A DNA stretch of 64,000 nucleotides, from the NCBI RefSeq assembly GCF_001719615.1, contig NZ_MDVX01000011.1:1-64000 (forward strand), read 5' to 3'. The first letter of the stretch is position 1. Every line of letters starts with the position of its first letter. Below are positions 8,975 through 24,519 of this stretch, piece after piece. A program made the position numbers and the translations under genes. The notes below the pieces were generated by a model. The model searched no databases, was not told the DNA's origin, and worked only from the letters and a program-made list of their open reading frames with translations. Origin of the DNA: Neptunicoccus sediminis. Its GTDB lineage: Bacteria > Pseudomonadota > Alphaproteobacteria > Rhodobacterales > Rhodobacteraceae.

Positions 8975-9723
8975 TCGGAAGCCTTCTTTTGTGTTGTCGC
9001 AAGCACGGCCCGCGTGCTGTCGTAGATTCGTCTTTCGTGAACGCCCAAGCCATTGGCCAGCGCATCCGCATCCCCCGCCTGTAACGCGGCAAGGATGACG
9101 CGATGATCCGCGATGCTTTGGGCGATGGCGCCGGGTGCACCGATTGCACGGCGGCGGTGATCCAATTGGTATGAATAAAGGGTCGTGGCGAGATCGGATA
9201 AAACCGCATTGCCACAGGATTGGTAAACGGTTGTGTGAAACGCACGGTCGGCAATCAAAAAGCGCACTGGATCGCCCGTTGCAGCTTCTTGTGCGTCGAT
9301 CAGCTTTTCAATGGCAGCCAGTGTTTCCGGCTTCACCCGTTGTGCCGCCAATCGCGCCACACGTTCTTCCACCATCAGGCGGCCTTCGTGTACGTCTTCC
9401 AGCGCGTATTCCGTGACCAGACCGTTGAAGAAAGCGGACAGGCCAAGCCCGCCGACATCATCGGACACGACCTTGGTGCGCGCGCCCTGCACAACGGAAA
9501 CGATTCCTTTGGTGGACAGGATCAACAAAGCGCCGCGGATGGTTTCGCGGCTGACACCCATTGTAGAGGCCAGTTCCCGCTCGCTTGGCAAGGCATCCCC
9601 GACGTTCAGCACACCAGAGGCAATCAGCGTTGCAAAACGCTCTGCCACCTCATCCTTGACGGAGCGGTGCGTGACCTTCTCCAAAGGGGTATTCTGTCCA
9701 GCCAAAAGAGCGTTTTCGCCCAT
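8971..9723 (-). CDS. FadR-type GntR transcriptional regulator, likely otn repressor
   Basis: GntR-family regulator of 250 residues. The N-terminal winged helix (residues about 20-85) includes LPSERELASTMGVSRETIRGAL. An all-helical FCD ligand domain follows with His residues (FHTTVYQ, DHRVIL) that usually bind a metal with a carboxylate effector. It is the first gene of the leftward otn operon and overlaps denD by 4 nt. Operator-like repeats lie directly upstream at 9742-9786, so autoregulation with relief by threonate, erythronate or an oxidised derivative is a reasonable inference. Confidence 0.9.
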   Translation of the reverse strand: MGENALLAGQNTPLEKVTHRSVKDEVAERFATLIASGVLNVGDALPSERELASTMGVSRETIRGALLILSTKGIVSVVQGARTKVVSDDVGGLGLSAFFNGLVTEYALEDVHEGRLMVEERVARLAAQRVKPETLAAIEKLIDAQEAATGDPVRFLIADRAFHTTVYQSCGNAVLSDLATTLYSYQLDHRRRAIGAPGAIAQSIADHRVILAALQAGDADALANGLGVHERRIYDSTRAVLATTQKKASE

Positions 9724-9741
9724 CCGAGTCCTCCGCCAAAG

Positions 9742-9786
9742 ACCAGTTGCACACCAACTGGTCTGGTTACTAGACCACTAGACCAG
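9742..9786 (-). promoter_or_regulatory. Operator cluster for the FadR-type regulator
   Basis: Just upstream of the regulator start are three overlapping repeat arrangements. ACCAGTTG and its complement are spaced by 5 nt (9742-9762). CTGGTCT and its complement AGACCAG lie at 9758-9764 and 9780-9786. A tandem direct repeat ACTAGACC covers 9769-9784. The TGGTC/GACCA core fits the TGGT-N-ACCA style of GntR/FadR operators. The sites cover the place where the otn operon promoter must lie. Confidence 0.65.
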
Positions 9787-9844
9787 AGCGGAGTCAAACG
9801 GATTCAAACGAGCAGAGGACTGGAATTTACGTCGGTCACATCCC

Positions 9845-10909
9845 CTAGCCGTCCCGACGGAACACAGCGCCGGTTTTTGTGGCCAGAAATGAGTCCAGCG
9901 GAATGTCTTCCTGTTTGAGAAACCCGCTTTGTCGCAATGTGCCATCGCGCACCATTTCCATGACCGCCACGACAGAACAGGTGGTGGTCCATGCGATTGC
10001 CGTGCGTGTCGATCCTGCCAGTTCGCGGGGCTTGTAGGCGCGCACGAATTCTTCGCGGGCCAGATCGGCGCCGCGCCATCCTTCAGCGGCGGCGTGGACG
10101 TAAACCACATCATCGCGCACCGGCGGTTTTGCATTCACAAGGATTTCGCCCGCTTCCTTACGCCGCTCCCGCATCAGCAGTTCATGAAAGAAAAAGTTCA
10201 TCTGCGCTGCGTGGCCGGGGTAACGCATGGTCTTGTAATCCATATTCGGCACACGCCCGAGGTAGGTCTCGCACATGGTCCCAAGCCCGCCGGAGGTGGT
10301 GAAGGCTTCCAGTTCGACGCCGTTAATATAGTGCTTTTCCATCCACTCCATCGCGGAGACGGATTTGATCTCGCCGTTCTCCAGAACTTCGCAGTCGTTC
10401 AGGTATTCGTTGACCACCCCTTCGGGCGACCAGTTAAAGGAATACCCCATCAGCCCCGTCGGGTTCTGCGGCAACGCCCCGACCCGCATTTTACAGGACC
10501 GGCAATCATCCAGTCGCGCGATCAGGTCGGCACCGACAATCCCGATGAACCCCGGCGCCAACCCGCATTGAGGGGCCATCAAGCGGTTAGAGGATTTTGA
10601 CATTTCCAGAATAGCCTTGGTGGTCGGCACGTCTTCGGTCAGATCAAAATAATGTATATTCGCTGCCAGTGCGGCGCGGGCAAGCTTGGCATTCAGATGA
10701 TAAGGCAGGCAGGACAGTACCGCGTCCACCTCGTTGAAGGCCGATTTGATCGCGGCATCATCCTGAACATCCGTGGCACGCACCTCAAACGGCAGCTCCC
10801 GATTATTCATGCGCAGGTCATGGGCGATGACAGTAAACCCCGCATCGTGGAGCAACTCCGCCGCCAGCGTTCCGATTTTTCCCAATCCTAAAACCGCGAT
10901 TGTTTTCAT
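9845..10909 (-). CDS. Saccharopine dehydrogenase-like oxidoreductase
   Basis: Protein of 354 residues with an N-terminal Rossmann domain (GLGKIG at 8-13) and the VLSCLPYHLN stretch typical of the saccharopine dehydrogenase/lysine 6-dehydrogenase family. The later APGFIGIVGADL segment fits the same fold. Members act on lysine, saccharopine or related amino acids with NAD(P). It is transcribed away from an Lrp-type regulator 156 nt upstream, a common arrangement for an amino-acid-responsive pair. The exact substrate cannot be fixed from sequence alone. L-lysine 6-dehydrogenation is one candidate. Confidence 0.8.
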   Translation of the reverse strand: MKTIAVLGLGKIGTLAAELLHDAGFTVIAHDLRMNNRELPFEVRATDVQDDAAIKSAFNEVDAVLSCLPYHLNAKLARAALAANIHYFDLTEDVPTTKAILEMSKSSNRLMAPQCGLAPGFIGIVGADLIARLDDCRSCKMRVGALPQNPTGLMGYSFNWSPEGVVNEYLNDCEVLENGEIKSVSAMEWMEKHYINGVELEAFTTSGGLGTMCETYLGRVPNMDYKTMRYPGHAAQMNFFFHELLMRERRKEAGEILVNAKPPVRDDVVYVHAAAEGWRGADLAREEFVRAYKPRELAGSTRTAIAWTTTCSVVAVMEMVRDGTLRQSGFLKQEDIPLDSFLATKTGAVFRRDG

Positions 10910-11065
10910 GATGTTCTGTCCTTTAACCCTATGGCGGGTTTTTCCCCGCCTGCCTGTTTTCCGCCCCTAAGCTCAAACATTCCGGCGTTAGACAAAAGAC
11001 ACATATTTATAGCAATTCGCCAGATTATTGGCATAATGTCAGAACGATAGAGGACAGGACCGGAT

Positions 11066-11488
11066 ATGGACGACACGGATCAGAGGCTTTTGACCCTGCT
11101 TGCCACAGATGCCCGCGCCAGTGCGAGCGATCTGGCCGCGCAGTTAAACGTATCGCGCGGAACGGTGCAGAACCGGATCGGGCGGATGCAGGATCAGGGG
11201 ATTATCAAACGCTTCACGGTTGAGCTGGGCGATGGGCCGCAAGACCGGCAGATCAGCGCCTTTACCCTGATCCGTGTCGCGGCAGATGATGGAAAACTTG
11301 CCATCGCAACTCTAAAGCGGATCGAAGGGGTGATGGATATTTCCACCCTGAGCGGTGAATTTGATCTGGTGGTGGAATTGCGCACCGGCTCCCTGCGGGA
11401 GCTGGATAGCTTGCTCGACAAAATACGCGCGATCAAGGATGTGGCCCAAACCCAAAGCCATATTCGCCTGATGACGGTGGCCCGCTAA
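11066..11488 (+). CDS. Lrp/AsnC-family transcriptional regulator
   Basis: Lrp-type regulator of 140 residues. An N-terminal helix-turn-helix (about residues 1-50, with SASDLAAQLNVSRGTVQNRI) precedes a RAM/ligand-binding domain containing LSGEFDLVVELRTGS. The length is close to the family norm for short members. It is divergent from the saccharopine dehydrogenase-like gene and probably controls that gene and itself in response to an amino acid. It ends 7 nt before the convergent RES toxin gene. Confidence 0.92.
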   Translation: MDDTDQRLLTLLATDARASASDLAAQLNVSRGTVQNRIGRMQDQGIIKRFTVELGDGPQDRQISAFTLIRVAADDGKLAIATLKRIEGVMDISTLSGEFDLVVELRTGSLRELDSLLDKIRAIKDVAQTQSHIRLMTVAR

Positions 11489-11495
11489 TCTCGGA

Positions 11496-12200
11496 TCAAT
11501 CCACCCGAAACACAGTGCCATCCCCCGCGTCACGGATAAGATCAACGGTAGCTCCGTCCCAATGATAGTCCAGATGCCGCCCCTGCACCGGCGGCGCGGC
11601 CAGATCGGGGTAAAACAATCCGGCGCAATCGCCTTCACCGCGTACACTCGGGTAGACGATACCTGAGCCGCCCGCGGCCCGCACCGCTGCGCCGAAATTC
11701 TGCGCCACCTGATAGCTGTCAGGGTTAAGCAGCGCATCCGCCCCCTGCCCCCGCAGATCGTAAAGATCGGCGTGCACATCCAGTATCAGTTCGCGGAATT
11801 GGGATGTCCAGCCCGGCGGTTGTGCCGTAGCCGCCATGAACCGCGCGTGGTGGTGGATTGTCTCGTAAACCGCCGTTTCAAAATCGTCTGCTACGTAGAG
11901 CACACCACGACGGCCGTCTGAAAACCGGCTGGGTCGGTCGGTGCTGGTATGGGTGAAAGGGGCCATCAGATAGCTGGCGCCCGGCCCCCCGACACGGCGG
12001 TTGGCGGGGATCAGGTCCAGATTTCCGATGGTTTCCATCAGTCGGGGATTGGTTTTCTGCTCGGCAGAGATCAGCAGCGGCCAGTCCTCGGGGGCGGCGA
12101 TGTCTTCAAACAGATCAATCGGGGGATAGACGCTGCGGATGATCCGCACCGCGCCGGTCCAGTCAATCCGGTTCACGGGGACATCCTGCGGCAAGATCAC
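11496..12200 (-). CDS. RES-domain toxin (predicted NAD+ phosphorylase)
   Basis: RES-domain protein of 234 residues, the toxin of a type II toxin-antitoxin pair. The conserved Arg (RPSRFSDGRRGVLY), Glu (AVYETIHHH) and Ser (VYPSVRGEG) that name the family are all present. Characterised family members (Res, MbcT, ParT) deplete or modify NAD+ or ADP-ribosylate targets. It overlaps the antitoxin gene upstream by 4 nt, as expected for coupled expression. No frameshift or missing residue is seen, so it looks intact. Confidence 0.9.
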   Translation of the reverse strand: MILPQDVPVNRIDWTGAVRIIRSVYPPIDLFEDIAAPEDWPLLISAEQKTNPRLMETIGNLDLIPANRRVGGPGASYLMAPFTHTSTDRPSRFSDGRRGVLYVADDFETAVYETIHHHARFMAATAQPPGWTSQFRELILDVHADLYDLRGQGADALLNPDSYQVAQNFGAAVRAAGGSGIVYPSVRGEGDCAGLFYPDLAAPPVQGRHLDYHWDGATVDLIRDAGDGTVFRVD

Positions 12201-12607
12201 CAGGCGCCGCGCTCTGCATCAAGGTAGCGGCGCACGCGCATCAGGTCTGTCAGTTCACCACCCAGCATCACAGAAAGTGCCGACTGGCCGTTGAACGCTG
12301 CATTGTCGGCTTTGATCCAGTCGTAACCCCGTTGCGGTTCACTGAACAGCAGGCGCAGGGCTTTGTGGATGCCAAGAAGATTGGACAACCGCGCCTTGGT
12401 GTCCCGATCCAGCCGCCCAAGCTGCCCCGATTTCCAGCGACGATAGGTTCGCACCGGAAGATCGAGCAGTGTCGCGGCCTCCTCATCAATCACGCCCCAT
12501 TTTTCAAACAGGGTCAAAACCGCACGCAACATCGCGGCAGCCTCGGCATCGGTGATCGGGTCGGGCGCAAAATCCTGCGCTTTGGTTTCCAACTGGTGCA
12601 GCGCCAT
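12197..12607 (-). CDS. Xre/MbcA/ParS-family antitoxin
   Basis: Antitoxin of 136 residues. The central region ATLLDLPVRTYRRWKSG is a helix-turn-helix. The C-terminal half (LSNLLGIHKALRLLFSEPQRGYDWIKADNAAFNGQSAL) is the toxin-binding domain that normally plugs the RES active site. It precedes the toxin gene with a 4-nt overlap. A ribosome site (AAGGAGG) lies about 7 nt before ATG 12607. A palindromic operator sits at the promoter, so negative autoregulation is expected. Confidence 0.92.
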   Translation of the reverse strand: MALHQLETKAQDFAPDPITDAEAAAMLRAVLTLFEKWGVIDEEAATLLDLPVRTYRRWKSGQLGRLDRDTKARLSNLLGIHKALRLLFSEPQRGYDWIKADNAAFNGQSALSVMLGGELTDLMRVRRYLDAERGAW

Positions 12608-12668: not shown

Positions 12669-13943
12669 CTATCCCGCCTTCGCCGCCAGCGTTTCCGGCG
12701 GGTGATAGGCGTCATAGGCGCGCTGGATCGCGATTTGATCCGCAACATATTTCGCATCATGCCAGACTCCCCAGATAAAAGAAGATCCGCGACGGGACTG
12801 CCACGGCAAGCCGACAAAATAGACGCCCCGTTCGGGTGAGACACCGCGCTGGTGGATCGGTTTGCCGTTGTCGTCAAAGGCGTCAATTTCGAGCCAGCCA
12901 TAGTCCACCGAAAATCCGGTAGCCCAGATGATCGACGTAATGCCAGCCTCTGCTAAATCCAGTTCTGTGATTGGATCGGTCAGACAAGCCGGATCAGGCC
13001 AGCGTTTGCGCTCTTGCGGGTCTTCGGGCAGGTCAAGCCCGTGACGTGTCACATAGGCGTCCGCCTCATCCAGAACTGATGCGTGGTTCGCATCACCCCG
13101 CGCAACGTTCTCGATTAGATCAGGGGCAAAGTACAGCTTGCCGTCCTCAAACCGCTCGGTCCGCCCGACAAGCCGCATTCCACCCGCAGCAAACCGGCGG
13201 AAATCCACGGTTTTGCCGCCCTTGGCGCCGCTTACCGCGATGGTGACATGTTCGGTTCCCGGCCCGGGTGTCTGCATATCCCATTTGCCCAGCACGCCGA
13301 GCCACCACACGAAATCCCGCCCCCGATAACTGCGGGGCGGACGGTCGTGGGGACCAACAGAAAGATAAACCTGACGACCGGAATCCATCAGTTCCTCTGC
13401 GATTTGCGCACCGGACGAACCTGCCCCGACCACCATAACGGCCCCTTGGGGCATCTGGTCGGGATTGCGGTAATCGTGAGAGTGGATTTGCGTCAGCCCC
13501 GCGCTTTGCGGCACCAGTTGCGGGATCAGCGGTTTCTGGAACGGTCCGGTAGCAGCGACGATCCGTTTGGTTTCAATCTCTCCTGCGCTGGTCTCGACCA
13601 GAAAGGCGGAGCCGTCGGCCGTGCGGCATGCGCGATTGACCTCGACGCCACAGCGCACGGGGGCGTTGATCTGTTTGGCATAGTCCACAAAATAATCCGC
13701 CACGCCTTCTTTTGGCACAAAAGCCTCGGGGTCATTTCCCGCAAATTCGCGGTTGGGAAAACGGTCATGCCATGCCGGTCCGTTGGCCACCAGAGAATCC
13801 CAGCGCGCAGTGCGCCAGCGTTCTGCGATGCGGTCCCGCTCCAGAACAATGTGATCCACCCCAAGCGCACCGAGATGTTCGCTCATGGCGATTCCGGCCT
13901 GACCGGCACCAACAACCAACGTGTCTGTCTTTTCTACGGGCAT
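12669..13943 (-). CDS. FAD-dependent monooxygenase, CzcO/FMO-like
   Basis: Flavin-containing monooxygenase-like protein of 424 residues. It has an FAD motif VVGAGQAG near the N-terminus, a second dinucleotide motif VVGAGSSGAQIAEEL for NADPH around residue 160, and a C-terminal WATGF motif. Such enzymes oxygenate N- or S-containing or ketone substrates. I chose ATG 13943, which has AAAGGA upstream; an in-frame ATG at 13979 is possible. The gene is divergent from ridA across an intergenic region with two LysR-type boxes. This ties it by inference to the amine cluster. Confidence 0.82.
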   Translation of the reverse strand: MPVEKTDTLVVGAGQAGIAMSEHLGALGVDHIVLERDRIAERWRTARWDSLVANGPAWHDRFPNREFAGNDPEAFVPKEGVADYFVDYAKQINAPVRCGVEVNRACRTADGSAFLVETSAGEIETKRIVAATGPFQKPLIPQLVPQSAGLTQIHSHDYRNPDQMPQGAVMVVGAGSSGAQIAEELMDSGRQVYLSVGPHDRPPRSYRGRDFVWWLGVLGKWDMQTPGPGTEHVTIAVSGAKGGKTVDFRRFAAGGMRLVGRTERFEDGKLYFAPDLIENVARGDANHASVLDEADAYVTRHGLDLPEDPQERKRWPDPACLTDPITELDLAEAGITSIIWATGFSVDYGWLEIDAFDDNGKPIHQRGVSPERGVYFVGLPWQSRRGSSFIWGVWHDAKYVADQIAIQRAYDAYHPPETLAAKAG

Positions 13944-14028
13944 TCCGGCATCCTTTGTCCTTTTTGGCAATGAGGGCACCCTAGGCGGCGGGCCGGAAGC
14001 TGAAAAACAGTAAATCTTGCAGCATTGC

Positions 14029-14043
14029 TTAGGCTGAAGCTAA
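14029..14043. promoter_or_regulatory. LysR-type box 1 (TTAGG-N5-GCTAA)
   Basis: Inverted repeat TTAG-N7-CTAA in the intergenic region between the divergent monooxygenase and ridA genes. It contains the T-N11-A pattern of LysR operators and matches boxes at 14080, 16340 and 18646. Confidence 0.6.
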
Positions 14044-14079
14044 ATCGACTGCCCGCGTGAACGGCTCTGATCTGCTTTA

Positions 14080-14098
14080 GATTAGGCAACAGCTAATC
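14080..14098. promoter_or_regulatory. LysR-type box 2 (GATTAG-N7-CTAATC)
   Basis: Perfect 6-bp inverted repeat with a 7-nt spacer in the same divergent promoter region, centred about 53 bp from box 1. Paired LysR recognition and activation sites are often arranged at such distances. Confidence 0.65.
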
Positions 14099-14211
14099 GG
14101 GGGTGAGGCACTCCGTACTTTTCGCCGCAGGATAATCCCATATTGCTAAGGCCATAGTACGCAGGGGACTGGGTGGACCCGCCCCCGCCTGTCAGTTGCA
14201 GAGGATCTTTC

Positions 14212-14628
14212 ATGGCCCACACACGTATTCGCAAATTCAACACCTCGGACACCTACCCAGAACAGAAACTCGACAATGATCTGTGTCAGGCGGTGGTCAC
14301 TGAGGGCGGCAAAACCGTCTGGTTGCGGGGGCAGTGTCCGCAAAATCTGGACGATGCCAAAAACATCGACAGCCACGATCCGGTTGAACAGACCCATAAG
14401 GTCATGCAGAACATCCGCCAGCTTATTCAGGAAGCCGGCGGCGAGATGGAGCATCTGGTCAAAGTGGTGGTCTACATCACCGACGTGCGCCACCGCGAGG
14501 CGGTTTACCGCACGATGGGGGAATACATCAAAGGGGTGCATCCGGTGTCAACGGGTCTGGTGGTACAGGCACTGGCGCGGCCCGAATGGCTGGTGGAAAT
14601 CGACGGCACAGCGGTGATACCGGAATGA
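14212..14628 (+). CDS. RidA/YjgF/UK114-family protein
   Basis: RidA-fold protein of 138 residues. RidA enzymes hydrolyse reactive enamine/imine intermediates to ketones plus ammonia. The ARPEWLVEI segment near the C-terminus carries the Arg that corresponds to the catalytic Arg105 of classical RidA. Start ATG 14212 follows GAGGAT; a longer frame from 14173 would read through the leader. It overlaps the DUF1028 gene by 4 nt, a pairing seen in many proteobacteria. Its place in an amine oxidation cluster fits a role in clearing imine products. Confidence 0.9.
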   Translation: MAHTRIRKFNTSDTYPEQKLDNDLCQAVVTEGGKTVWLRGQCPQNLDDAKNIDSHDPVEQTHKVMQNIRQLIQEAGGEMEHLVKVVVYITDVRHREAVYRTMGEYIKGVHPVSTGLVVQALARPEWLVEIDGTAVIPE

Positions 14629-15299
14629 CCTTTTCGCTTGTTGCCCGCTGTCCTGATACCGGCATGTTCGGTGTTGCCATTTCATCATCCTCTCCGGCGG
14701 TTGCGGCGCGGTGTTCTTATGCCCGCTCCGGTGTCGGTGCGGTCGCCACGCAAAATGTCACCGACCCGAGCCTTGGCCCCCTTACGCTTGATCTGATGGG
14801 ACAAGGGCTTGGCGCGGAAAAGGCAATTGCGCAGGTTAAGGCGCGGGGGAAGTTCATCGAATACAGACAAGTGCTCGCCGTGGATTATGAAGGGCGCACG
14901 GCCATTCACTCCGGTCCGAACTCTCTTGGCATCTGGACGCAGGCGATGGCTGAAAATGTTGCGTCCGGGGGCAATCTTCTGTCCAATGACACGGTGCCGC
15001 AGGCCATCGTGGACGGCTATCTTGCAGCGACGGGGCATATCGGGGATCGCCTAATCGCCGCGATGCGGGCAGGTCTGCAAGCAGGGGGCGAAGCCGGACC
15101 CGTCCATTCCGCAGGCATGATGATTGTGGATAAGGTCAGCTGGCCCGTTGCCGATCTGCGCTGCGACTGGACCGATGAATGCCCGATTGAAAATATCGCC
15201 ACCGCTTGGGAGATCTACAAACCCCAGTTGGACGCCTATGTGCAGCGCGCACTTGATCCGCGTGAGGCCCCGTCCTACGGGGTGCCGGGAGACGATTGA
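14625..15299 (+). CDS. DUF1028 family protein (Ntn-hydrolase-like)
   Basis: DUF1028 protein of 224 residues. It begins MTFSLVARCPDTGMFGVAISSSSPAVAARC, the hallmark N-terminus of the family, with the Gly-rich VGAVATQNVTDPSLG after it. The fold is related to N-terminal nucleophile hydrolases and the biochemical role is poorly defined. The start codon overlaps the ridA stop (ATGA), so I take ATG 14625 rather than an upstream in-frame codon. Co-occurrence with RidA and amine or peptide catabolic genes suggests hydrolysis of an amide intermediate, but this is inference. Confidence 0.9.
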   Translation: MTFSLVARCPDTGMFGVAISSSSPAVAARCSYARSGVGAVATQNVTDPSLGPLTLDLMGQGLGAEKAIAQVKARGKFIEYRQVLAVDYEGRTAIHSGPNSLGIWTQAMAENVASGGNLLSNDTVPQAIVDGYLAATGHIGDRLIAAMRAGLQAGGEAGPVHSAGMMIVDKVSWPVADLRCDWTDECPIENIATAWEIYKPQLDAYVQRALDPREAPSYGVPGDD

Positions 15300-15392
15300 G
15301 CGCTGAAAGCGGTGTCTTCCCCTTGCAAAATCCCGCCCTTATAACAGGGGCATACCCGCTGCGCGATGCAGCGTTTGAGGACTGGAAACCCC

Positions 15393-16334
15393 ATGCTGAG
15401 ATTCACCCTGCGCCAGCTTGAGTATTTTGTTGCCGTTGGCGAAATGGGCAGCATCGCTATGGCGGCTGAAAAGGTGAATGTGTCCTCGCCGTCTATTTCC
15501 GCCGCTGTGAACCAGCTTGAAAAAGAGTTCGGCCTGCCCCTGTTTGTGCGCCAGCATGCACAAGGCCTGTCCCTGACGCTGGCAGGGCGCGAGATGATGA
15601 AGCAAGCCAAGCTGGTGCTCGACAATGCCGAAAAGCTGGTTGATCTGGCGGCGGATGTGTCGGGCAATGTGCAAGGGCCGCTGTCCATCGGTGTTCTGCT
15701 GACCTTTGCGCAGATGGTGGTCCCTGCCCTGCGCGCGAGTTTTGAGGCGCTGTTTCCCGATGTGCGCGTCACCCAGCACGAACTGGATCAGGCGCAGATT
15801 TTCAGCAAATTGCGGCGCGGCGAAATCGACATTGCCTTGACCTATGATCTGGACCTGCCGGGAGATCTGAAATTCCAGCCGGTTGCCACCCTGCCGCCCT
15901 ATGCGATCCTGCCGCCTGATCATCCCCTTGCGGGTCGCGCCAGTGTCAGTGTCGATGACCTGTTGCCCTATCCGATGGTGCTGCTGGATCTGCCGTTCAG
16001 TTCGGAATATTTTCTGTCATTTTTCGGGGCATCCGGTCTCAAACCAAAGGTGGCGGAACGCACGCGGGATATGGCGGTGATGCGCAGCCTTGTGGCCAAC
16101 GGCTTTGGGTTTTCCATCGCCAATGTGCGCCCCTTGAACGATCTGTCGCCCGATGGCAAACCCCTGCGGTTTGTGCCGCTCGACGGAGAGGCCAGACCGA
16201 TGCAACTGGGGTTGTTGGCGTCAAAGGATGCGGATAGCGCCAGCGTAATCCGTGCCTTTATGCAGCACTGTCTGACCGAATACCGCGACGGGCGCTTGCC
16301 CGGTTTGAACGTCACCTCTCTGCACAGCCCCTAG
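15393..16334 (+). CDS. LysR-family transcriptional regulator of the amine cluster
   Basis: LysR regulator of 313 residues. The N-terminal winged helix-turn-helix (LRQLEYFVAVGEMGSIAMAAEKVNVSSPSIS) is followed by a periplasmic-binding-protein-like effector domain starting near residue 90. It lies inside the ridA-DUF1028-flavoprotein-pot cluster on the same strand. Four inverted repeats with the LysR T-N11-A pattern occur in promoter regions of that cluster, so it is the obvious candidate to bind them. The predicted start ATG is 15393; a codon at 15366 would extend it by 9 unlikely residues. Confidence 0.92.
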   Translation: MLRFTLRQLEYFVAVGEMGSIAMAAEKVNVSSPSISAAVNQLEKEFGLPLFVRQHAQGLSLTLAGREMMKQAKLVLDNAEKLVDLAADVSGNVQGPLSIGVLLTFAQMVVPALRASFEALFPDVRVTQHELDQAQIFSKLRRGEIDIALTYDLDLPGDLKFQPVATLPPYAILPPDHPLAGRASVSVDDLLPYPMVLLDLPFSSEYFLSFFGASGLKPKVAERTRDMAVMRSLVANGFGFSIANVRPLNDLSPDGKPLRFVPLDGEARPMQLGLLASKDADSASVIRAFMQHCLTEYRDGRLPGLNVTSLHSP

Positions 16335-16339
16335 CCGGA

Positions 16340-16354
16340 TTAGGCGCGGCCTAA
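16340..16354 (+). promoter_or_regulatory. LysR-type box 3 (TTAGG-N5-CCTAA)
   Basis: TTAG-N7-CTAA inverted repeat 6 nt after the lysR stop and about 80 nt before the flavoprotein start. The position suits activator binding for the downstream gene. Confidence 0.6.
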
Positions 16355-16434
16355 GCAGCGGTTTTGCAAGCCAGACTGTTGCCCGCTTCACGCCAAGGCT
16401 AATCTGCGCGCAATTGCAGCCTTAGGAGGTGCCC

Positions 16435-18504
16435 GTGCGCGATCCCCGTTATGATATTCTGTTTGAGCCGATGGACATCGGCCCTGTAACTTCCAAAAAC
16501 CGTTTCTATCAGGTCCCTCATTGCAACGGCGGCGGGTATCGTGACCCGTCTGCAGCGGCAGCGATGCGCGGGATCAAGTCCCAAGGCGGCTGGGGCGTGG
16601 TGTTCACCGAACAATGCGAGATGCACCATACATCGGAAATCACCCCCTTCATCGAATTGCGGCTTTGGGAAGATAAAGACATCCCCCAGTTGCGCAAGAT
16701 GTCGGAAAAGATGAAGGAACACGGGGCGCTGGCGGGTATCCAACTGGCCTACTCCGGTATCAACGGGCCGAACCTTTATAGCAAAGAGGTTCCGCTGGCG
16801 GTGTCCGCCATGCCGATCCGCACCTTTACCAATGATCCGGTGCAGGCCCGTGCGCTCGACAAATCCGACATCCGAGACCTGCGACGCTGGTTTGTGAATG
16901 CGGCCAAACGCTCCAAAGACGCGGGCTTTGACCTGATCTGTCTTTACGGGGCGCACGGGTTTGGCATCTTCCAGCATTTTCTAAGCCGCGCCACAAACCA
17001 GCGCAGCGATGAATACGGTGGCAGTCTGGAAAACCGTGCACGTTTCGTAAACGAGGTCATCTCGGACATGCGCGATGCGGTGGGGGATACGATGGGGATC
17101 ACCCTGCGGGTCAGTTTGGATGAAACCATCGGGGATCTGGGCTTTTCCAACGCCGAAGTGCGCGACTTTATCGAAATGAACCGTGACCTGCCGGACCTTT
17201 GGGATCTGGCGCAGGGCACGTGGGAAGATTGCTCCGGCCCGTCACGGTTCAAGGAGGAGGCTGCGCAGGAACAACTGGTGCGGGGCATTCACGATCTGAC
17301 CGAAAAACCGATCGTCGGGGTCGGTCGGTTCACCTCTCCGGATGTTATGGCCAAAATGATCCGCAGCGGCACGCTGGACTTTATCGGCTGCGCCCGTCCC
17401 TCCATTGCCGACCCGTTCCTGCCCAAAAAGATCGAGGAAGGCCGCATCGAAGACATCCGCGAATGTATCGGCTGCAATATCTGCATCACCGGTGACATGA
17501 CCATGTCCATCAGCCGTTGCACCCAGAACCCGACCTTTATGGAGGAATGGCGCAAGGGCTGGCATCCCGAACAGATGAACGCCAAAGGGGGCAGCAGTTC
17601 CGTGCTGGTCGTGGGCTCCGGTCCGGCAGGACTTGAGGCGACCCGTGCTTTGGCGGAACGGGGCTATGATGTGGCACTGGCCGAAGCCAAGACGGTTCTG
17701 GGCGGTCGCGTCACCCGTGAACGCCAGCTTCCGGGCCTAAGTGCTTGGGGCCGTGTGGTGGATTACCGCGAATACCAGATCAGCCAGAAACCGAATGTGG
17801 AAACCTATTTTGACAGCGCGCTCGACGCGGGCAGCATTCTGGAATTCGGCTTTGAAAATATCTGCATCGCCACCGGCGCAAACTGGCGCGACGACGGGGT
17901 TTCACGCCAGCATGTGGTGCCGATGGCTATTGACAGGAATATGCCGGTTTATACGCCGGATCACATCATGGATGGGAAAATCCCCTCGGGTAAAGTCGTG
18001 ATTTACGACGATGACCATTACTATATGGGCGGCGTGCTGGCCGAACTTTTGGTCAATGCGGGCTGTGAGGTTACGATCATCACCCCTTCGGCCTATCTGT
18101 CAGACTGGACGGTTAACACGTTGGAACAACATGCGATCCACAAAAAACTGGCGGGTATGGGGGTGAATGTTGTGCTGAACCGTGGCGTCATCCGGATTGC
18201 GGCGGATCATGTGGTGTCCGACTGCGTCTACACCGGCACGGAGCAAAATTTCGACTGCGGGTCTGTGGTCATGGTGGCCAGCAAGCTGGAAAACAACGAA
18301 CTTTACCACGCCCTTAAATCGCGGGAGTCTGAATGGGCGGATGCTGGGATCAAATCGGTGCAGATCATCGGGGATGCCAATGCCCCCGGACCGATTGCTT
18401 GGGCCACATATGCCGGACACCGTTATGCACGGGAACTGGACGGGGAAGACATCGCAGACGCACTGCCCTTCCGCCGCGAAATCACCGAACTGGCGGTGGA
18501 CTAA
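16435..18504 (+). CDS. Trimethylamine dehydrogenase-family FMN/4Fe-4S flavoprotein
   Basis: Three-part flavoprotein of 689 residues: an FMN TIM-barrel of the Old Yellow Enzyme type, a 4Fe-4S site (CIGCNIC then Cys 11 residues on, near 345-360) and C-terminal dinucleotide-binding domains (VVGSGPAGLEA). It aligns closely by eye with trimethylamine dehydrogenase. Counting from GTG 16435, Cys30 falls on the residue that covalently binds FMN. The aromatic-bowl positions differ: residue 60 is Gln instead of Tyr and residue 105 is Ala instead of Trp. A different secondary or tertiary amine, such as an N-methylated amino acid or polyamine, is therefore more likely than trimethylamine. The ribosome site AGGAGG lies 6 nt before the GTG, and LysR box 3 lies upstream. 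Confidence 0.85.
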   Translation: MRDPRYDILFEPMDIGPVTSKNRFYQVPHCNGGGYRDPSAAAAMRGIKSQGGWGVVFTEQCEMHHTSEITPFIELRLWEDKDIPQLRKMSEKMKEHGALAGIQLAYSGINGPNLYSKEVPLAVSAMPIRTFTNDPVQARALDKSDIRDLRRWFVNAAKRSKDAGFDLICLYGAHGFGIFQHFLSRATNQRSDEYGGSLENRARFVNEVISDMRDAVGDTMGITLRVSLDETIGDLGFSNAEVRDFIEMNRDLPDLWDLAQGTWEDCSGPSRFKEEAAQEQLVRGIHDLTEKPIVGVGRFTSPDVMAKMIRSGTLDFIGCARPSIADPFLPKKIEEGRIEDIRECIGCNICITGDMTMSISRCTQNPTFMEEWRKGWHPEQMNAKGGSSSVLVVGSGPAGLEATRALAERGYDVALAEAKTVLGGRVTRERQLPGLSAWGRVVDYREYQISQKPNVETYFDSALDAGSILEFGFENICIATGANWRDDGVSRQHVVPMAIDRNMPVYTPDHIMDGKIPSGKVVIYDDDHYYMGGVLAELLVNAGCEVTIITPSAYLSDWTVNTLEQHAIHKKLAGMGVNVVLNRGVIRIAADHVVSDCVYTGTEQNFDCGSVVMVASKLENNELYHALKSRESEWADAGIKSVQIIGDANAPGPIAWATYAGHRYARELDGEDIADALPFRREITELAVD

Positions 18505-18516
18505 GCATCACTCAAC

Positions 18517-18543
18517 CACAGGGGGCGGCATCCGTCCCCTGTG
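18517..18543 (+). terminator. Hairpin after the flavoprotein gene
   Basis: Perfect 8-bp stem (CACAGGGG and complement) with an 11-nt loop, 13 nt after the stop codon. No T-run follows, so it may be a weak or factor-dependent terminator or an RNA-stabilising element. Confidence 0.45.
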
Positions 18544-18645
18544 CCGCGTTAAGGGACGGGCCGGGCTTTGGACGCGCGACAATCATCGATTCCAAAAGCG
18601 ATTGAATTCAATGCATTGCGCACTGGTTCCGCCCGATTATGCGGC

Positions 18646-18662
18646 ATTAGGTTTTCCCTAAT
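18646..18662 (+). promoter_or_regulatory. LysR-type box 4 (ATTAG-N7-CTAAT)
   Basis: Perfect 5-bp inverted repeat with a 7-nt spacer, about 85 nt before the start of the ABC transporter operon. It shares the TTAGG-N5-CCTAA core with the other three boxes. Confidence 0.65.
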
Positions 18663-18745
18663 ACGGGCTGAGGGAGACAATTCTTACCAACTGCTCAAGC
18701 CTCTCTTACTGTCCTTTTCAACACCACCGCCACCGGGGAGCGCCT

Positions 18746-19837
18746 GTGTCTTTAGAAAATCCGAACGCCATTGAAGTCCGCGAAGCCGTCAAGCGGTATG
18801 GCGATTTTACTGCTTTGAAAACTATCTCTCTGTCCATCAAGGACAATGAATTTTTCACCCTGCTTGGTCCTTCGGGCTGTGGTAAAACCACGCTTTTGCG
18901 GATGATTGCGGGGTTTGAGGATGTGACCGAAGGGGCGATCTATCTTTATGATGAGGAAATCGCCGGTCTGCCGCCCCACAAACGCCCCGTGAACACGGTT
19001 TTTCAGAACTACGCCCTGTTCCCCCATAAGACCGTGCTCGACAATGTGGCTTTCGGACTGCAAATGCGCGGAAACTCCAAAGCTGACTCCCGCAAACGGG
19101 CGGGCGAGATGCTGGAACTGGTGCAGCTGTCGCAATTTGCAGGCCGCAAGCCTTCGCAGTTGTCGGGGGGCCAGCAGCAAAGGGTCGCACTGGCCCGCGC
19201 ATTGGCCCCGCAGCCAAAGGTTCTGTTGCTGGACGAACCATTGTCGGCCCTTGATCTGAAACTGCGCAAGGCGATGCAACTGGAATTGAAACACCTGCAA
19301 CGGGAAACCGGCATCACCTTTATTTTTGTGACCCACGATCAGGAAGAAGCCCTGACCATGTCCGACCGGATCGCTGTCATGTCGTCGGGCGAATTGCAGC
19401 AACTGGGGGACGCCAGAGAGATTTACGAAAGCCCGCGCAATATGTTTGTCGCGGATTTCATCGGAGAAACCAACCTGTTGGGGGTGTCGGTAGACCGCGT
19501 GGAAGCCGGACAGGCGGTGTGTCATCTGGGGGGTGGTCACGCGCTGACCTGTGCAGCGGTCGAAGACGTGGCTGCCGGATCGGATGTCCATCTTTCGGTC
19601 AGACCGGAGCGACTGTTCCTGACCCCCGAAGCGGAATCCGCCGATGGCATGAAGGCCACTGTGCGTGAGAATATCTTTGTGGGTACCGACATCACCACCC
19701 TTGTGGATCTGGCAGACGGACCGCAATTCACCATCCGCACCTCTAATTCGGAGCGGGGCAACAAACGTATCTTTGAACCCGGCACCCCCGTATTCGTTAA
19801 CATGGAGCATGGGGCCGCACGGCTCTTGGTAGACTGA
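18746..19837 (+). CDS. potA: ABC transporter ATPase, spermidine/putrescine type (PotA)
   Basis: ATP-binding subunit of 363 residues. The Walker A GPSGCGKTT is at 41-49, the signature is LSGGQQQRVALARAL, and Walker B is LLLDEPLSALD followed by the H-loop FVTHDQEEA. A C-terminal TOBE region begins near residue 285. It couples ATP hydrolysis to import of cationic organic compounds. The start is GTG 18746, supported by GGGGAG upstream. It shares one base with the following permease gene. The acetylpolyamine amidohydrolase downstream suggests an N-modified polyamine as cargo. Confidence 0.92.
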   Translation: MSLENPNAIEVREAVKRYGDFTALKTISLSIKDNEFFTLLGPSGCGKTTLLRMIAGFEDVTEGAIYLYDEEIAGLPPHKRPVNTVFQNYALFPHKTVLDNVAFGLQMRGNSKADSRKRAGEMLELVQLSQFAGRKPSQLSGGQQQRVALARALAPQPKVLLLDEPLSALDLKLRKAMQLELKHLQRETGITFIFVTHDQEEALTMSDRIAVMSSGELQQLGDAREIYESPRNMFVADFIGETNLLGVSVDRVEAGQAVCHLGGGHALTCAAVEDVAAGSDVHLSVRPERLFLTPEAESADGMKATVRENIFVGTDITTLVDLADGPQFTIRTSNSERGNKRIFEPGTPVFVNMEHGAARLLVD

Positions 19838-20766
19838 TGGCAGGCGGCGCAACTTCAGGCGGCAGTGCCGTCACCGACACCTACAAAGAAGCCCGCAACT
19901 GGCTGTTGCTTCCGGCATGGATCACGCTCGGCTTTTTGGTGCTGGCGCCGGTCCTTTTGATGCTGGTCTATTCCTTTCTGACCAAAGAATTCAGGGGCGG
20001 CGTCATTTGGGAATTTTCACTGGCGGCCTATGACCAGTTTTTCTTTGACCGTGGTCTCTTCGGGGATGATCCCGCGCAGATCGAGTGGACCTATATTGCG
20101 ATTTTCTGGCGCTCTATCTGGCAGGCGGGGGTGGCAACGCTTCTCAGTCTCGCCATCGGGTTTCCGACCGCCTATTTCATCGCCACGCGGCCTGAAAAAC
20201 AGCGCGTGATCTGGGTGTTTCTGATCACGATCCCCTATTGGGTGAACCTGCTGATCCGAACCGTTTCTATGCGGTTTCTGTTACGCGACGAGGGGCCTCT
20301 GAACTCTTTCTTCATGGCCACAGGGCTGGTGGATGGTCCGATTCATATGATCAATACAAATTTCGCGGTGCAGGTCGGGCTGTTCTATTCCTATCTGCCC
20401 TTCATGGTGCTGCCAATCTATGCCGCGGTGGAGCGCTATAATTTCACCCTCAGCGAAGCGGCGGCGGATCTTTATGCCAACAAATGGATCACCCTGCGCC
20501 ACATCGTGTTGCCCGCAGTGAAACCGGGGGTGGTTGCGGGCTGTATTCTTGTGTTCGTGCCCTCGCTGGGGTCGTTTCTGGCACCTGATCTTCTGGGGGG
20601 TGCGAAGAATTTCATGATCGGCTCTTTGATCGAAGAGCAGTTCAAAGGCAACGCGGGCAACTGGCCCTTTGGTGCGGCAGCGTCGATGATCCTGCTGACG
20701 ATGGTGCTGATTATTCTGGTGATCTATGCACGGGCGCAGGCCCGCAGCGACAAAGAGGCGGGCTAA
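19837..20766 (+). CDS. potB: ABC transporter permease (PotB-like)
   Basis: Inner-membrane permease of 309 residues with about six membrane helices. The coupling EAA-type loop is visible (SEAAADLYANKWITLRHIVLPAVKPGVVAG). It forms the translocation channel with the PotC-like protein encoded 3 nt downstream. Its start overlaps the potA stop by one base, so the first residues (MAGGATSGGS) are set by that coupling. Confidence 0.92.
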   Translation: MAGGATSGGSAVTDTYKEARNWLLLPAWITLGFLVLAPVLLMLVYSFLTKEFRGGVIWEFSLAAYDQFFFDRGLFGDDPAQIEWTYIAIFWRSIWQAGVATLLSLAIGFPTAYFIATRPEKQRVIWVFLITIPYWVNLLIRTVSMRFLLRDEGPLNSFFMATGLVDGPIHMINTNFAVQVGLFYSYLPFMVLPIYAAVERYNFTLSEAAADLYANKWITLRHIVLPAVKPGVVAGCILVFVPSLGSFLAPDLLGGAKNFMIGSLIEEQFKGNAGNWPFGAAASMILLTMVLIILVIYARAQARSDKEAG

Positions 20767-20769
20767 GCG

Positions 20770-21579
20770 ATGGCAACACGCAGGTATGACATTAAATCCT
20801 ACTCCGGCTTTTTGCAGATCACGCTGCTTTGTCTGTTCGTGCTTTATGCGCCGCTGATCGTCGTAGCGGTCTACAGCCTAAACGCATCGGAATCCATCGC
20901 TGTATGGGAAGGGTTTTCCCTGCGATGGTATGCGGATGTGTTCACCGGCTCGGAAAGTGCAAAGTTCAAAGTGGCGGCGCGCAACAGTTTTGTCATTGCG
21001 ATTATCGCGGCGAGTGTGGCCACCACGATTGCGACCCTTGCAGCAACAGCCATGGTGCGCGGTGGTAAATTCCGGCTGCGCGCCTGGTCTTTCGGGTTGA
21101 TCTCCTTGCCGCTGATGGTGCCTGAAATCGTTACTGCGGTGGCCACGCTGATCTTCTTCAACTCCATCGGGTTTGAGCGGGGTTTGCTGACGATCCTGCT
21201 GGCCCATATCGCCTTTTGCATCCCCTTTGCCTATTTGCCGATCTCTGCGCGGATGCAGAGTATTGAGGACACTTACGAACAGGCGGCCCAAGACCTTTAT
21301 GCCACCAAACGACAGGCGTTTACCAAGATCCTCCTGCCGTTGATGCTACCGGGAATAATCTCGGGCTATCTGCTGGCCTTTATCATTTCCCTTGATGATT
21401 TCATCATCACGAACTTCGTCAAAGGGGCCGGCGTCGAGACCCTGCCAACAGCGATTTTCGGGGCAGTCAAACAGGGGATCAAACCCAATATCATGGCCAT
21501 TTCGACGATGCTTTTGGGCTTTTCCATCCTGATGGTGCTGATTTCCTATCTCGTCAGCCGAACCGACAAAAAACCTTAA
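20770..21579 (+). CDS. potC: ABC transporter permease (PotC-like)
   Basis: Second permease of 269 residues, again six-helix. Its EAA loop is [30 protein letters not shown], followed by the PotC-typical [15 protein letters not shown]. It begins 3 nt after potB and is followed by potD after 24 nt. Confidence 0.93.
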
Positions 21580-21603
21580 CCAAAACCAACAGTGGAGACA
21601 AAA

Positions 21604-22638
21604 ATGAAAAAACTACTTACCACCACCGCAGCCGCTACCGCGCTTTTGATGGGGGCGTCTGGGGCGCAGGCGGAAGGCAAACTGGCGATCTATCACTGGT
21701 TTGAATACATCCCGCAGGAGCTTCTGGACAAGTTCAGCGCCGAGCATGATGTAGAAGTCATCATGGATACCTACGATTCAAACGAGTCCATGCTCGCCAC
21801 GCTTAAGGCTGGCGCAATCGGTACCTATGATGTGGCGGTCCCGACCGATTACATGGTTTCGATCCTGATCTCAGAGGGTCTGGCCGATGAAATCGCGCCA
21901 GGTGAGTTGAAGAATATCGGCAACGTTAAGGATGCCTTCACCGATCCGGCCTATGACCCCGGTCTGAAACACTCAATCCCCTATCAGGGGGGCACAACCA
22001 GCTTTTCCGTCGATACCGCTGAATATGCCGGTGACGTGAACACCACGGATGTTATCTTTAATCCGCCGTCCGAATTGCACGGCAAGATCAACATTCTGGA
22101 CAGTCAGGGCGAGGTTCTGGCACTGGCTGCGGTCCACATGGGCATTCCGCAATGCTCTACCGACCGCGAACAGCTCAAGGCGCTGAACGCAATGCTGCAG
22201 GCGGCGAAACCCCATTGGGCGTCGTTTAACTCTGACACCGCCAAAGAGGTTCTGGCGGCAGGCGATGTCACAGTCGGGATGATCTTTAACGGCTATGCCG
22301 CCAAAGCCGCAGAAGCCCGCGACACGCTACAATATGCTTTCCCGAAACAAGGCTGGGTGAACTGGATGGACAGTGTTGTCCTGCTTAAAGATGCACCAAA
22401 CCGCGAGAATGCGCTGAAGTTCATGGATTTCCTGCTGGAACCGGAAAATATCGCAGCGGTCACGAATTTCGCGCGCTACCGCGATGTTGTGACGGGCAGC
22501 GAGGCGTTTCACGATCCGGCCCTTGCTCAGGAACCTGAAGGCAACCCGCCAGCGGGGATTGAAGGGGTTTTCGTGCAGGCCTGTGATGCGGAAACACAGG
22601 CGGTCTACGACAAGATCTGGACCAATCTGAAGAAATAA
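21604..22638 (+). CDS. potD: Periplasmic polyamine-type binding protein (PotD-like)
   Basis: Solute-binding protein of 344 residues. A signal peptide is followed by cleavage near SGAQA-EG. The mature protein starts KLAIYHWFEYIPQELLDKF, the PotD/PotF-style opening. Aromatic and acidic residues typical of polyamine binding are scattered through the cleft region (DTYDSNESM, VPTDYMVS). I chose ATG 21604, preceded by GTGGAGAC. It should capture the imported amine. A 7-bp hairpin with TTTT follows at 22650-22684. Confidence 0.9.
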   Translation: MKKLLTTTAAATALLMGASGAQAEGKLAIYHWFEYIPQELLDKFSAEHDVEVIMDTYDSNESMLATLKAGAIGTYDVAVPTDYMVSILISEGLADEIAPGELKNIGNVKDAFTDPAYDPGLKHSIPYQGGTTSFSVDTAEYAGDVNTTDVIFNPPSELHGKINILDSQGEVLALAAVHMGIPQCSTDREQLKALNAMLQAAKPHWASFNSDTAKEVLAAGDVTVGMIFNGYAAKAAEARDTLQYAFPKQGWVNWMDSVVLLKDAPNRENALKFMDFLLEPENIAAVTNFARYRDVVTGSEAFHDPALAQEPEGNPPAGIEGVFVQACDAETQAVYDKIWTNLKK

Positions 22639-22703: not shown

Positions 22704-23741
22704 ATGGAAACGATTTTCACAGAGAAGCACCGGCTGCGGGATGCCAAAACCGAACTCTTCGGCGGCGAGTTGGTGTCCCCCCATGAGCGGCCAAGCCGCG
22801 CGGAATATGTGATACAACGGGTGCGCGATGTTGCGCTGGGTCCGGTTAGTGTTCCGGCGGATTTCGGGCTCGACCCGATCCTTGCCATTCACAAACCGGA
22901 TTTTGTCAGTTTCCTGCAAACGGCTTGGGAACGCTGGCAGGACGCGGGTTTCAAGGGCGAGGCGATGCCGACCACATGGGTCGGGCGGCGCATGTCGGAC
23001 AAGCGCCCCAACTTTATCGAAGGTCAGGTCGGGTATTACGCGCTCGCCGGAGAAACCAGCATCAGCGGTGGCACGTGGGAAGCCGCCTATGCCAGCGCGC
23101 AAGTGGCGCTTACAGGGGCGGATCGCATTAACAAAGGTGCGCAAACCGTGTTTTCGCTGTGCCGTCCCCCCGGCCATCATGCCACGTCGGATATGTATGG
23201 CGGTTATTGTTTTCTCAACAACGCCGCGATTGCCGCGCAATTTTACCGGGATACGGGTGCCAAACGGGTGGCGATATTGGATGTGGATTTCCACCACGGC
23301 AACGGAACGCAGGACATCTTTTATGATCGGGATGATGTCTTGTTTGTATCGCTGCACGGGGACCCTCTGGAGACATTTCCCTATCAGCTTGGCCATGCCG
23401 ATGAACAGGGCAGCGGTGCGGGCGAAGGGTTTAACGTCAATTATCCCATGCCCCCCGACACGCCGTTTGCGGTCTGGCGTCAAGCGCTGGCCAAAGGGCT
23501 GGAGCGGATCGCAGCGCATGCGCCGGATGTGCTGGTTATCTCGCTTGGCGTTGATACCTTTGAAAATGATCCAATCAGTTTCTTTAAGCTAAAGAGCGAC
23601 GATTTCACTACGATGGGTGCCGATATTGCCCGCGCCGGATTGCCCACCCATTTTATCATGGAAGGCGGTTACGACGTGGAAGAAATCGGCGTGAACGCGG
23701 TGAATGTGCTACAGGGATTCATCGCGGAACGGGGGGCGTAA
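22704..23741 (+). CDS. Acetylpolyamine amidohydrolase (class II HDAC-like)
   Basis: Zn-dependent deacetylase of 345 residues, near the 341 of the Mycoplana enzyme. All catalytic residues are present at identical numbering: His158-His159 in RPPGHHA, Zn ligands Asp195 and His197 in DVDFHHGNG, Asp284 in GVDTFE, and Tyr323 in GGY. The opening resembles the acetylpolyamine-specific branch rather than histone deacetylases. Expected reaction is hydrolysis of N-acetyl putrescine, cadaverine or spermidine to the free amine and acetate in the cytoplasm. Its place after potABCD argues for uptake and deacetylation of acetylpolyamines. Confidence 0.9.
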   Translation: METIFTEKHRLRDAKTELFGGELVSPHERPSRAEYVIQRVRDVALGPVSVPADFGLDPILAIHKPDFVSFLQTAWERWQDAGFKGEAMPTTWVGRRMSDKRPNFIEGQVGYYALAGETSISGGTWEAAYASAQVALTGADRINKGAQTVFSLCRPPGHHATSDMYGGYCFLNNAAIAAQFYRDTGAKRVAILDVDFHHGNGTQDIFYDRDDVLFVSLHGDPLETFPYQLGHADEQGSGAGEGFNVNYPMPPDTPFAVWRQALAKGLERIAAHAPDVLVISLGVDTFENDPISFFKLKSDDFTTMGADIARAGLPTHFIMEGGYDVEEIGVNAVNVLQGFIAERGA

Positions 23742-23745
23742 GATC

Positions 23746-24519
23746 ATGCGCATCGGGGTTTGGCAGGATGAAACGCCTTCTGGCGGGGTCGCGGCGGCAC
23801 GGCAGGTAATCGCCACCGCGCTTGGGCAGGCGCAGGCAGAGGGGGTGGAGATTCTCGTCTTTCCCGAATGTTTCCTGACCGGATATTTCCGCGACGCACA
23901 GCAGGTCGCCCCCTGTGCTGGTGCAGTGACAGCAGAGGAAATCGCAGCGCTGCAAAATCTATGCGATGATACGGGCGTTGCCTTTGTGCTGGGCAGCTAT
24001 CTTCCGGTTCAGGACGCCACCGCAAACGTGGCTTTGGTCTTCCGGCCCCAGACAGGGACTCCGCTGACCTATCACAAACGCGCCCTTTACGGGGATTGGG
24101 AGAAATCTGTTTTTCAGGCGGGCCGCGGTCCGTTGCTTTTCGACTACAAGGGCAAAACCTTTGCGGTGCTGATATGCTTTGATGTGGAATTTCCCGAACT
24201 GGTACGGGAGGCAGCACAGCTTGGGGCGGAGGCGGTACTGGTGCCCACTGCCCTGATGGAGCCGGACCACTGGGTGCCCGATCTGATGGTCCCCTCCCGC
24301 GCCATCGAGAATAATGTGATGCTGGCCTATGCCAACCGCATCGGGGTTGAAGGGCACCTGACCTTCATCGGCAAAAGCCAGCTTTGCGATGCGGACACGT
24401 CCCACCGCGTTGTGCACAGCGAAACCGGAGTCGGATTGATCAGCGCAGAGTTGCAAGTGAACCCCGCAGCGACCGATTACCTCCGCGAGATCAACACGCA
24501 AGGATTGCCAAAACCCTGA
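23746..24519 (+). CDS. Nitrilase-superfamily carbon-nitrogen hydrolase
   Basis: Nitrilase-fold amidase of 257 residues with the complete catalytic triad: Glu41 (FPECF), Lys111 (YHKRALYG) and Cys144 (LICFDVEFPEL). A supporting Glu119 lies in DWEKS. Members cleave amides, N-carbamoyl compounds or nitriles, and N-carbamoylputrescine amidase is one related branch. The start ATG 23746 lies 4 nt after the amidohydrolase stop; an in-frame upstream codon would sit inside that gene. As the last gene of the cluster it may hydrolyse an amide made during polyamine breakdown, but the substrate is unproven. Confidence 0.85.
   Translation: MRIGVWQDETPSGGVAAARQVIATALGQAQAEGVEILVFPECFLTGYFRDAQQVAPCAGAVTAEEIAALQNLCDDTGVAFVLGSYLPVQDATANVALVFRPQTGTPLTYHKRALYGDWEKSVFQAGRGPLLFDYKGKTFAVLICFDVEFPELVREAAQLGAEAVLVPTALMEPDHWVPDLMVPSRAIENNVMLAYANRIGVEGHLTFIGKSQLCDADTSHRVVHSETGVGLISAELQVNPAATDYLREINTQGLPKP

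Follow-up and report, generated by a model that had tools for sequence, protein, structure and literature searches.

Four intergenic boxes beside a LysR gene

The first 64,000 nucleotides of contig NZ_MDVX01000011.1 of Neptunicoccus sediminis (the window) carry genes for a flavin monooxygenase, a RidA-family protein, a DUF1028 protein, a LysR-type regulator, a histamine dehydrogenase (by homology) and a PotABCD-like ATP-binding cassette (ABC) importer, and four copies of the interrupted palindrome TTAG-N7-CTAA lie among them (Table 1). A preliminary description read these boxes as a LysR regulon of the T-N11-A kind, with the LysR gene among its own sites, and comparative evidence (spacing, placement and conservation of the boxes) supports that reading. 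The boxes are very likely sites of the LysR protein encoded at 15393-16334, predicted to control a histamine catabolic regulon from about 65 bp upstream of the starts, and this regulon probably corresponds, by analogy, to the HinK histamine regulon of Pseudomonas, the alphaproteobacterial version having an operator of its own.

The strict form of the box, TTAGGNNNNNSCTAA (TTAGG-N5-SCTAA), has four matches in the window, where 100 dinucleotide shuffles give 0.01 on average. TTAG-N7-CTAA finds the same four sites only (chance mean 0.11, at most 1 in any shuffle), so chance accounts for fewer sites than the earlier estimate of about one per 64 kb allowed. All four boxes are intergenic and sit between the genes named at the outset; the longer spans first given for two of them, 14080-14098 and 18646-18662, are the cores 14082-14096 and 18647-18661 plus flanking palindrome. 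The divergent region holds two boxes that differ in direction: by the strand on which promoter model R1 (see below) matches, 14029 points to the monooxygenase and 14082 to ridA.

Matches are not scattered across the genome either (3,862,086 bases in 72 contigs; handles beginning with C, L and G denote contigs, loci and genomes): four of five TTAGGNNNNNSCTAA sites and four of nine TTAG-N7-CTAA sites are inside the window. The fifth TTAGGNNNNNSCTAA site, C31:27954, looks like a chance occurrence because it ends in the stop codon of one open reading frame (ORF), one base ahead of the start codon of the next. The remaining TTAG-N7-CTAA sites are C55:399550, which precedes a Rieske oxygenase gene, C60:15932, about 100 bp 5' of an ORF, and two of the form TTAGAATnATTCTAA, C31:31820-31834 (L006, 11821) and C59:15034-15048. 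These two, a further TTAGAATnATTCTAA site in L091 and the TTAGCATCATTCTAA sites of L040 and L045 have the same outer arms and resemble iron-regulator boxes. The palindrome at C31:31820-31834 precedes, by about 100 bp, a gene that is ferritin-like by Pfam.

Table 1. Boxes, predicted -10 elements and genes of the cluster (window positions)
Feature	Position	Strand	Remarks
Operator box 1	14029..14043	-	TTAGCTTCAGCCTAA on the minus strand; predicted to serve the monooxygenase; R1 18.3 bits
Predicted weak -10 of box 1 promoter	13983-13978	-	TAGGGT; conserved distance, 3/6 consensus
Operator box 2	14082..14096	+	TTAGGCAACAGCTAA; predicted to serve ridA-DUF1028, probably LysR; R1 30.8 bits
Predicted weak -10 of box 2 promoter	14141-14146	+	TATTGC; 3/6 consensus
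Operator box 3	16340..16354	+	TTAGGCGCGGCCTAA; predicted to serve histamine dehydrogenase; R1 25.1 bits
Predicted weak -10 of box 3 promoter	16400-16405	+	TAATCT; 3/6 consensus
Operator box 4	18647..18661	+	TTAGGTTTTCCCTAA; predicted to serve potABCD, probably the next two genes; R1 26.1 bits
Predicted weak -10 of box 4 promoter	18707-18712	+	TACTGT; 3/6 consensus
Flavin monooxygenase	12669..13943	-	Putative HinF counterpart (imidazoleacetate monooxygenase); Pfam, operon order
RidA-family protein	14212..14628	+	Pfam; putative HinL counterpart by operon order
DUF1028 protein	14625..15299	+	Pfam; putative HinH counterpart by operon order
LysR-type regulator	15393..16334	+	Pfam HTH_1 and LysR_substrate; predicted box binder, putative HinK counterpart
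Histamine dehydrogenase (6-S-cysteinyl-FMN/4Fe-4S type, by homology)	16435..18504	+	Matches 6DE6 and 3K30
ABC transporter ATPase, PotA-like	18746..19837	+	Pfam; predicted histamine or amine importer
ABC permease, PotB-like	19837..20766	+	Named by position; after potA in relatives
ABC permease, PotC-like	20770..21579	+	Named by position, as in relatives
ABC solute-binding protein, PotD-like	21592..22638	+	Pfam
Acetylpolyamine amidohydrolase-like	22704..23741	+	6phr, 472 bits; without own box; probably in pot transcript
Nitrilase-family amidase	23746..24519	+	Pfam CN_hydrolase; without own box; probably in pot transcript

Conservation of the boxes in relatives

Sites, conservation, orientation, spacing and predicted regulon membership were computed, the comparison drawing on the best 80 of 563 confirmed loci with LysR relatives (1.52 Mb, mostly Rhodobacterales by record titles). 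The spacer proved strict: N7 gives 125 matches in 68 loci, and spacings of 3-6 and 8-13 give 0-2 each. Among 2,560 combinations (256 arms by 10 spacers) in these loci, TTAG/CTAA with N7 tops the ranking of observed over expected. The 125 matches include three iron-type sites (L091, L040 and L045), which a count of 118 boxes leaves out.

Placement was counted in the 350 bp upstream of each gene in 79 loci, the near-identical Amylibacter cionae locus L033 being left out, for tblastn matches above a per-gene identity cut-off that begin no more than 40 residues from the query start; six regions that ran into the end of a locus were not counted (monooxygenase 3, DUF1028 1, potC 1, LysR 1). An exact box precedes potA in 30 of 34 cases and a one-mismatch box in 3; the corresponding figures are 31 and 6 of 46 for histamine dehydrogenase, 37 and 23 of 62 for the monooxygenase, and 11 and 4 of 27 for the Rieske oxygenase. 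They are 13 and 5 of 69 for ridA, which is often downstream in an operon, 4 and 4 of 57 for M20, and 1 and 2 of 78 for LysR itself. Genes internal to operons have no box at up to one mismatch (potB 0/34, potC 0/34, potD 0/37, DUF1028 0/68, aldehyde dehydrogenase (ALDH) 0/28), in upstream regions that are mostly coding DNA. At least one exact non-iron box is present in 67 of the 79 loci, and boxes travel with their genes through changes of order and strand, for example where the dehydrogenase or pot genes are on the opposite strand. Where the cluster is kept, the boxes are conserved with it. The G after TTAG and the G or C before CTAA, first thought to be part of the box, are common across the relatives' promoters but dispensable.

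Promoter layout

When 31 histamine dehydrogenase and 28 potA promoters are aligned on the box, the box is followed by GCT-N5-A, then CTTT or CTTA at -35, then a -10-like hexamer. Searched for 38-71 bp from the box centre, this hexamer has its first base 51-54 bp away in 28 of the 31 histamine dehydrogenase and all 28 potA promoters (56/59), and because of that distance the box centre would fall near -65 relative to the predicted transcription start. The usual recognition site of LysR activators is at -65, and classical LysR activator promoters such as those of BenM/CatM and CbbR have a T-N11-A palindrome near this position with a second element towards -35. The promoters described here share with these the interrupted palindrome near -65, at fixed spacing, and the second element on the -35 side; their arms, TTAG/CTAA, and the target set differ. 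The monooxygenase ORF could begin at 13979, and the ATG at 13943 agrees with the predicted transcript.

A promoter model and an unlinked Rieske gene

Model R1 (49 positions, sequence-only) was built from 47 gap-free promoters of other genera (alignment A3), with the window and L033 excluded; since it was restricted to gap-free sequences, its training set is the well-behaved part of the promoters. A MAFFT alignment of 63 sequences (A2), in which several minus-strand monooxygenase promoters had shifted onto a neighbouring one-mismatch TTAG-N7-CCAA box, was left unused. R1 finds five matches in the N. sediminis genome at an expectation value (E) of at most 10 (150 of 394 first-look candidates scored): the four window boxes, each facing its gene (14029 on the minus strand, the other three on the plus strand), and C55:399547-399588. 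All five precede predicted regulon genes. Over 61 genomes, with stricter filters and E at most 0.012, R1 matches in six, all of them among the 12 that have the LysR gene (E<=1e-50).

The C55 site belongs to a lone Rieske oxygenase gene at C55:399550-400774 (L119, 7551-8775), which has the same operator-promoter module, is flanked by unrelated genes and has the box centre 90 bp upstream of its probable start codon. The protein is 72% identical to the Rieske protein of L034, whose gene sits between monooxygenase and ridA, and in many relatives the gene is located inside the cluster. The Rieske genes of the two nearest species share 90-91% identity with it; one has the exact box and the other a box with one mismatch. 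In G012, which is more distant (77%), no box was seen before the gene. G001, one of the six genomes with R1 matches at E<=0.012, has its match before a Rieske gene, and its LysR gene lies on a different contig. The view that the four boxes mark one regulon stands, then, with the amendment that the predicted regulon extends beyond the cluster to this unlinked gene. An HpaB-type hydroxylase takes the Rieske place in L152 (4731-6263), and L166, L168 and L170 have one beside RidA-DUF1028, the stretch read lacking the monooxygenase.

Histamine dehydrogenase and Hin-type genes

The flavoprotein that had been labelled 'TMADH-like' is, by homology, a histamine dehydrogenase. It scores 1244 bits against the Rhizobium sp. 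histamine dehydrogenase 6DE6, 813 against that of Nocardioides (3K30) and 535 against trimethylamine dehydrogenase. The match to 6DE6 is nearly full-length and differs by a four-residue gap near 518, across which Leu is read at aligned position 567. All 19 active-site, docking or tunnel residues listed in the available text of PMC10180351 are identical to 6DE6, including Cys30, which carries 6-S-Cys-flavin mononucleotide (FMN), catalytic Tyr171, His174 and Asp265; the same text describes the Rhizobium enzyme as more histamine-specific.

As described in the available parts of PMC8231116 and PMC6467879, the Pseudomonas hinFLHG operon encodes HinF, a flavin adenine dinucleotide (FAD) monooxygenase (EC 1.14.13.5), and HinG, an amidase or peptide-bond hydrolase; aldehyde dehydrogenase and aminotransferase are the functions given for HinD and HinC, and HinK is a LysR-type regulator that responds to imidazole-4-acetate. 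The HinK histamine regulon is that of Pseudomonas putida U and P. aeruginosa PAO1 (PMC8231116). Because gene order and enzyme class agree, monooxygenase-RidA-DUF1028-M20 was equated with hinFLHG, and on this basis the monooxygenase, RidA and DUF1028 proteins of the window would be counterparts of HinF, HinL and HinH. The four genes stand on one strand in 14 of 20 non-alphaproteobacterial loci of a DUF1028 set, which comprised the best-scoring 36 of 48 matching places outside the window (16 alphaproteobacterial, 20 non-alphaproteobacterial); in N. sediminis the window gene is the sole DUF1028 match at E<=0.001.

As far as the available Hin sources go, the likeness to the HinK regulon also takes in the LysR regulator and the ALDH and class-III aminotransferase genes of some relatives, which match the roles of HinD and HinC. 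The same sources bring out differences: in the alphaproteobacterial regulon the first step would be taken by histamine dehydrogenase, an ABC importer stands in place of the HinA permease, and a Rieske (or HpaB-type) oxygenase is added. The operator differs as well, as judged from non-alphaproteobacterial hin-like promoters and not from the published HinK operator. Homarine catabolism, the first pathway considered, was dropped as unnecessary once the histamine dehydrogenase and the hinFLHG order appeared.

In relatives the LysR gene is linked to hin-type catabolic genes. The best solved relatives of the protein are 3fzv (2.1e-53) and 6m5f (3.8e-53), both presumably HinK. Residue 32 is Ser or Pro in eight alphaproteobacterial proteins from loci with boxes and Gln in most others; the exceptions are L180, L181 and L188 (Pro or Ser without a box), L189 (Ala), and L169 and L175 (Gln with one box each). 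The LysR locus scan was itself seeded on VSSPSIS, and in this comparison of recognition helices a tie between residue 32 and the box is only hinted at.

Reach of the box and neighbouring genes

The box also stands in Shinella, Rhizobium gallicum and a record labelled Roseateles, where the gene that follows is for histamine dehydrogenase, the monooxygenase or PotA. In the DUF1028 set, TTAG-N7-CTAA is present in 9 of 16 alphaproteobacterial and 2 of 20 non-alphaproteobacterial loci, the latter being at chance level by a rough estimate. The Pantoea plasmid locus L151 has no exact box and no R1 match. It and L198 (CP057278.1 30063-46995) are enterobacterial plasmid stretches with a related LysR (47-48%), monooxygenase-like, RidA, DUF1028, ArgE-like and ABC genes and extra enzymes, and with no annotated histamine dehydrogenase. 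Klebsiella accounts for 106 of the 240 plasmid records in which a LysR match reaches E<=1e-40.

Beside the window cluster, a RES-domain toxin-like gene adjoins an Xre/MbcA/ParS-type antitoxin gene on the minus strand at 11496-12607 (Pfam), and 8971-11488 holds a GntR/FCD regulator, a saccharopine-dehydrogenase-like gene and an Lrp-type regulator. The last two have a tblastn match in L033 alone among the 80 loci.

Proposed mechanism and alternatives

LysR binding, activation, transcription starts, the inducer and the enzyme steps are put forward as predictions. The LysR protein would recognise TTAG-N7-CTAA, a T-N11-A palindrome, at boxes whose centres lie some 65 bp before the transcription start that each controls, and GCT-N5-A with CTTT/CTTA between box and -10 would complete the layout of a recognition site plus activation site. 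Its predicted targets are the ABC importer potABCD, histamine dehydrogenase, the HinF/HinL/HinH counterparts and the unlinked Rieske oxygenase. HinK suggests, by analogy, imidazole-4-acetate as the probable inducer; a breakdown product of histamine would therefore switch on import and further breakdown. LysR probably also boosts its own supply, because its gene comes after ridA-DUF1028.

A number of observations weigh against this proposal. The ALDH and M20 amidase expected for the pathway are missing from the window cluster, and at their nearest homologues elsewhere in the genome (55% and 50%) R1 found no site. The window hexamers at the conserved distance have 3/6 consensus bases in all four promoters, a weakness that is as expected of activator-dependent promoters and no proof of such. 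The 80 loci were chosen by LysR similarity and are mutually related, not independent samples; no exact box was found in 12 of 79, and the operon-internal controls are, as said, mostly coding. R1 has no match in six of the 12 LysR-bearing genomes. The stretches of five of these six were read, G010 being left out: an exact box precedes the monooxygenase in two and a one-mismatch box in two, and G012 has no exact box in the stretch read and none seen before its Rieske gene. Three genomes without a detected LysR have one weak R1 match each (E 0.03-0.08). Finally, 18 non-alphaproteobacterial monooxygenase upstreams have no exact and one one-mismatch box; they share other stretches by eye, among which no palindrome stood out.

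A first alternative keeps the boxes as operators of this LysR and assigns the pathway to another amine (a polyamine, acetylpolyamine, agmatine or methylated amine), with histamine dehydrogenase as a side enzyme. The PotABCD-like importer and the acetylpolyamine amidohydrolase-like gene would suit such a pathway, as would the Rieske oxygenase, closest among solved structures to carnitine monooxygenases, and the enterobacterial plasmids that carry related LysR, RidA, DUF1028 and monooxygenase-like genes and no annotated histamine dehydrogenase. Against this, all 19 listed residues of the Rhizobium enzyme are retained, an enzyme that its source, in the available text, calls more histamine-specific, and the monooxygenase-RidA-DUF1028-M20 set agrees with the hinFLHG order as the Hin sources give it; another amine is thus possible and on balance unlikely.

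That the boxes belong to another regulator is very improbable. GntR and Lrp genes lie less than 5 kb from box 1, and a LuxR gene adjoins the cluster in some relatives; a global regulator would be a further candidate. Yet boxes are present in 68 of the 80 loci and Lrp in L033 alone (by a tblastn search of which GntR was not part), LuxR relatives occur in a minority of loci, and the layout, a T-N11-A palindrome with its centre near -65, is of the LysR type. Chance or a compositional artefact, to which a first-stage pattern defined after the sites were seen would be open, can be practically dismissed given the shuffle counts, the N7-only spacing, the R1 genome matches and the operon-internal control upstreams.

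Implications

We found no report of a histamine LysR operator in Rhodobacterales, in a search that did not reach bioRxiv preprints or most subscription papers and so gives no proof of novelty. Methylhistamine and methylimidazoleacetate are products of animal histamine metabolism. It is a speculative and rather improbable extension of the LysR histamine regulon that the Rieske oxygenase (elsewhere the HpaB-type enzyme) would demethylate or open N-methylated imidazoles such as these, and that marine bacteria would thus consume host-derived histamine derivatives under one LysR switch.

What emerges is a sharply defined operator and promoter layout for a predicted LysR regulon of many marine Rhodobacterales and some Rhizobiales, with a predicted unlinked member that would escape a survey of gene neighbourhood alone. 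Genes that carry the annotations polyamine transporter, FAD oxidoreductase and DUF1028 can be re-labelled as probable histamine catabolism genes, and the histamine dehydrogenase family, studied for food testing, gains a candidate regulator and a testable inducer.

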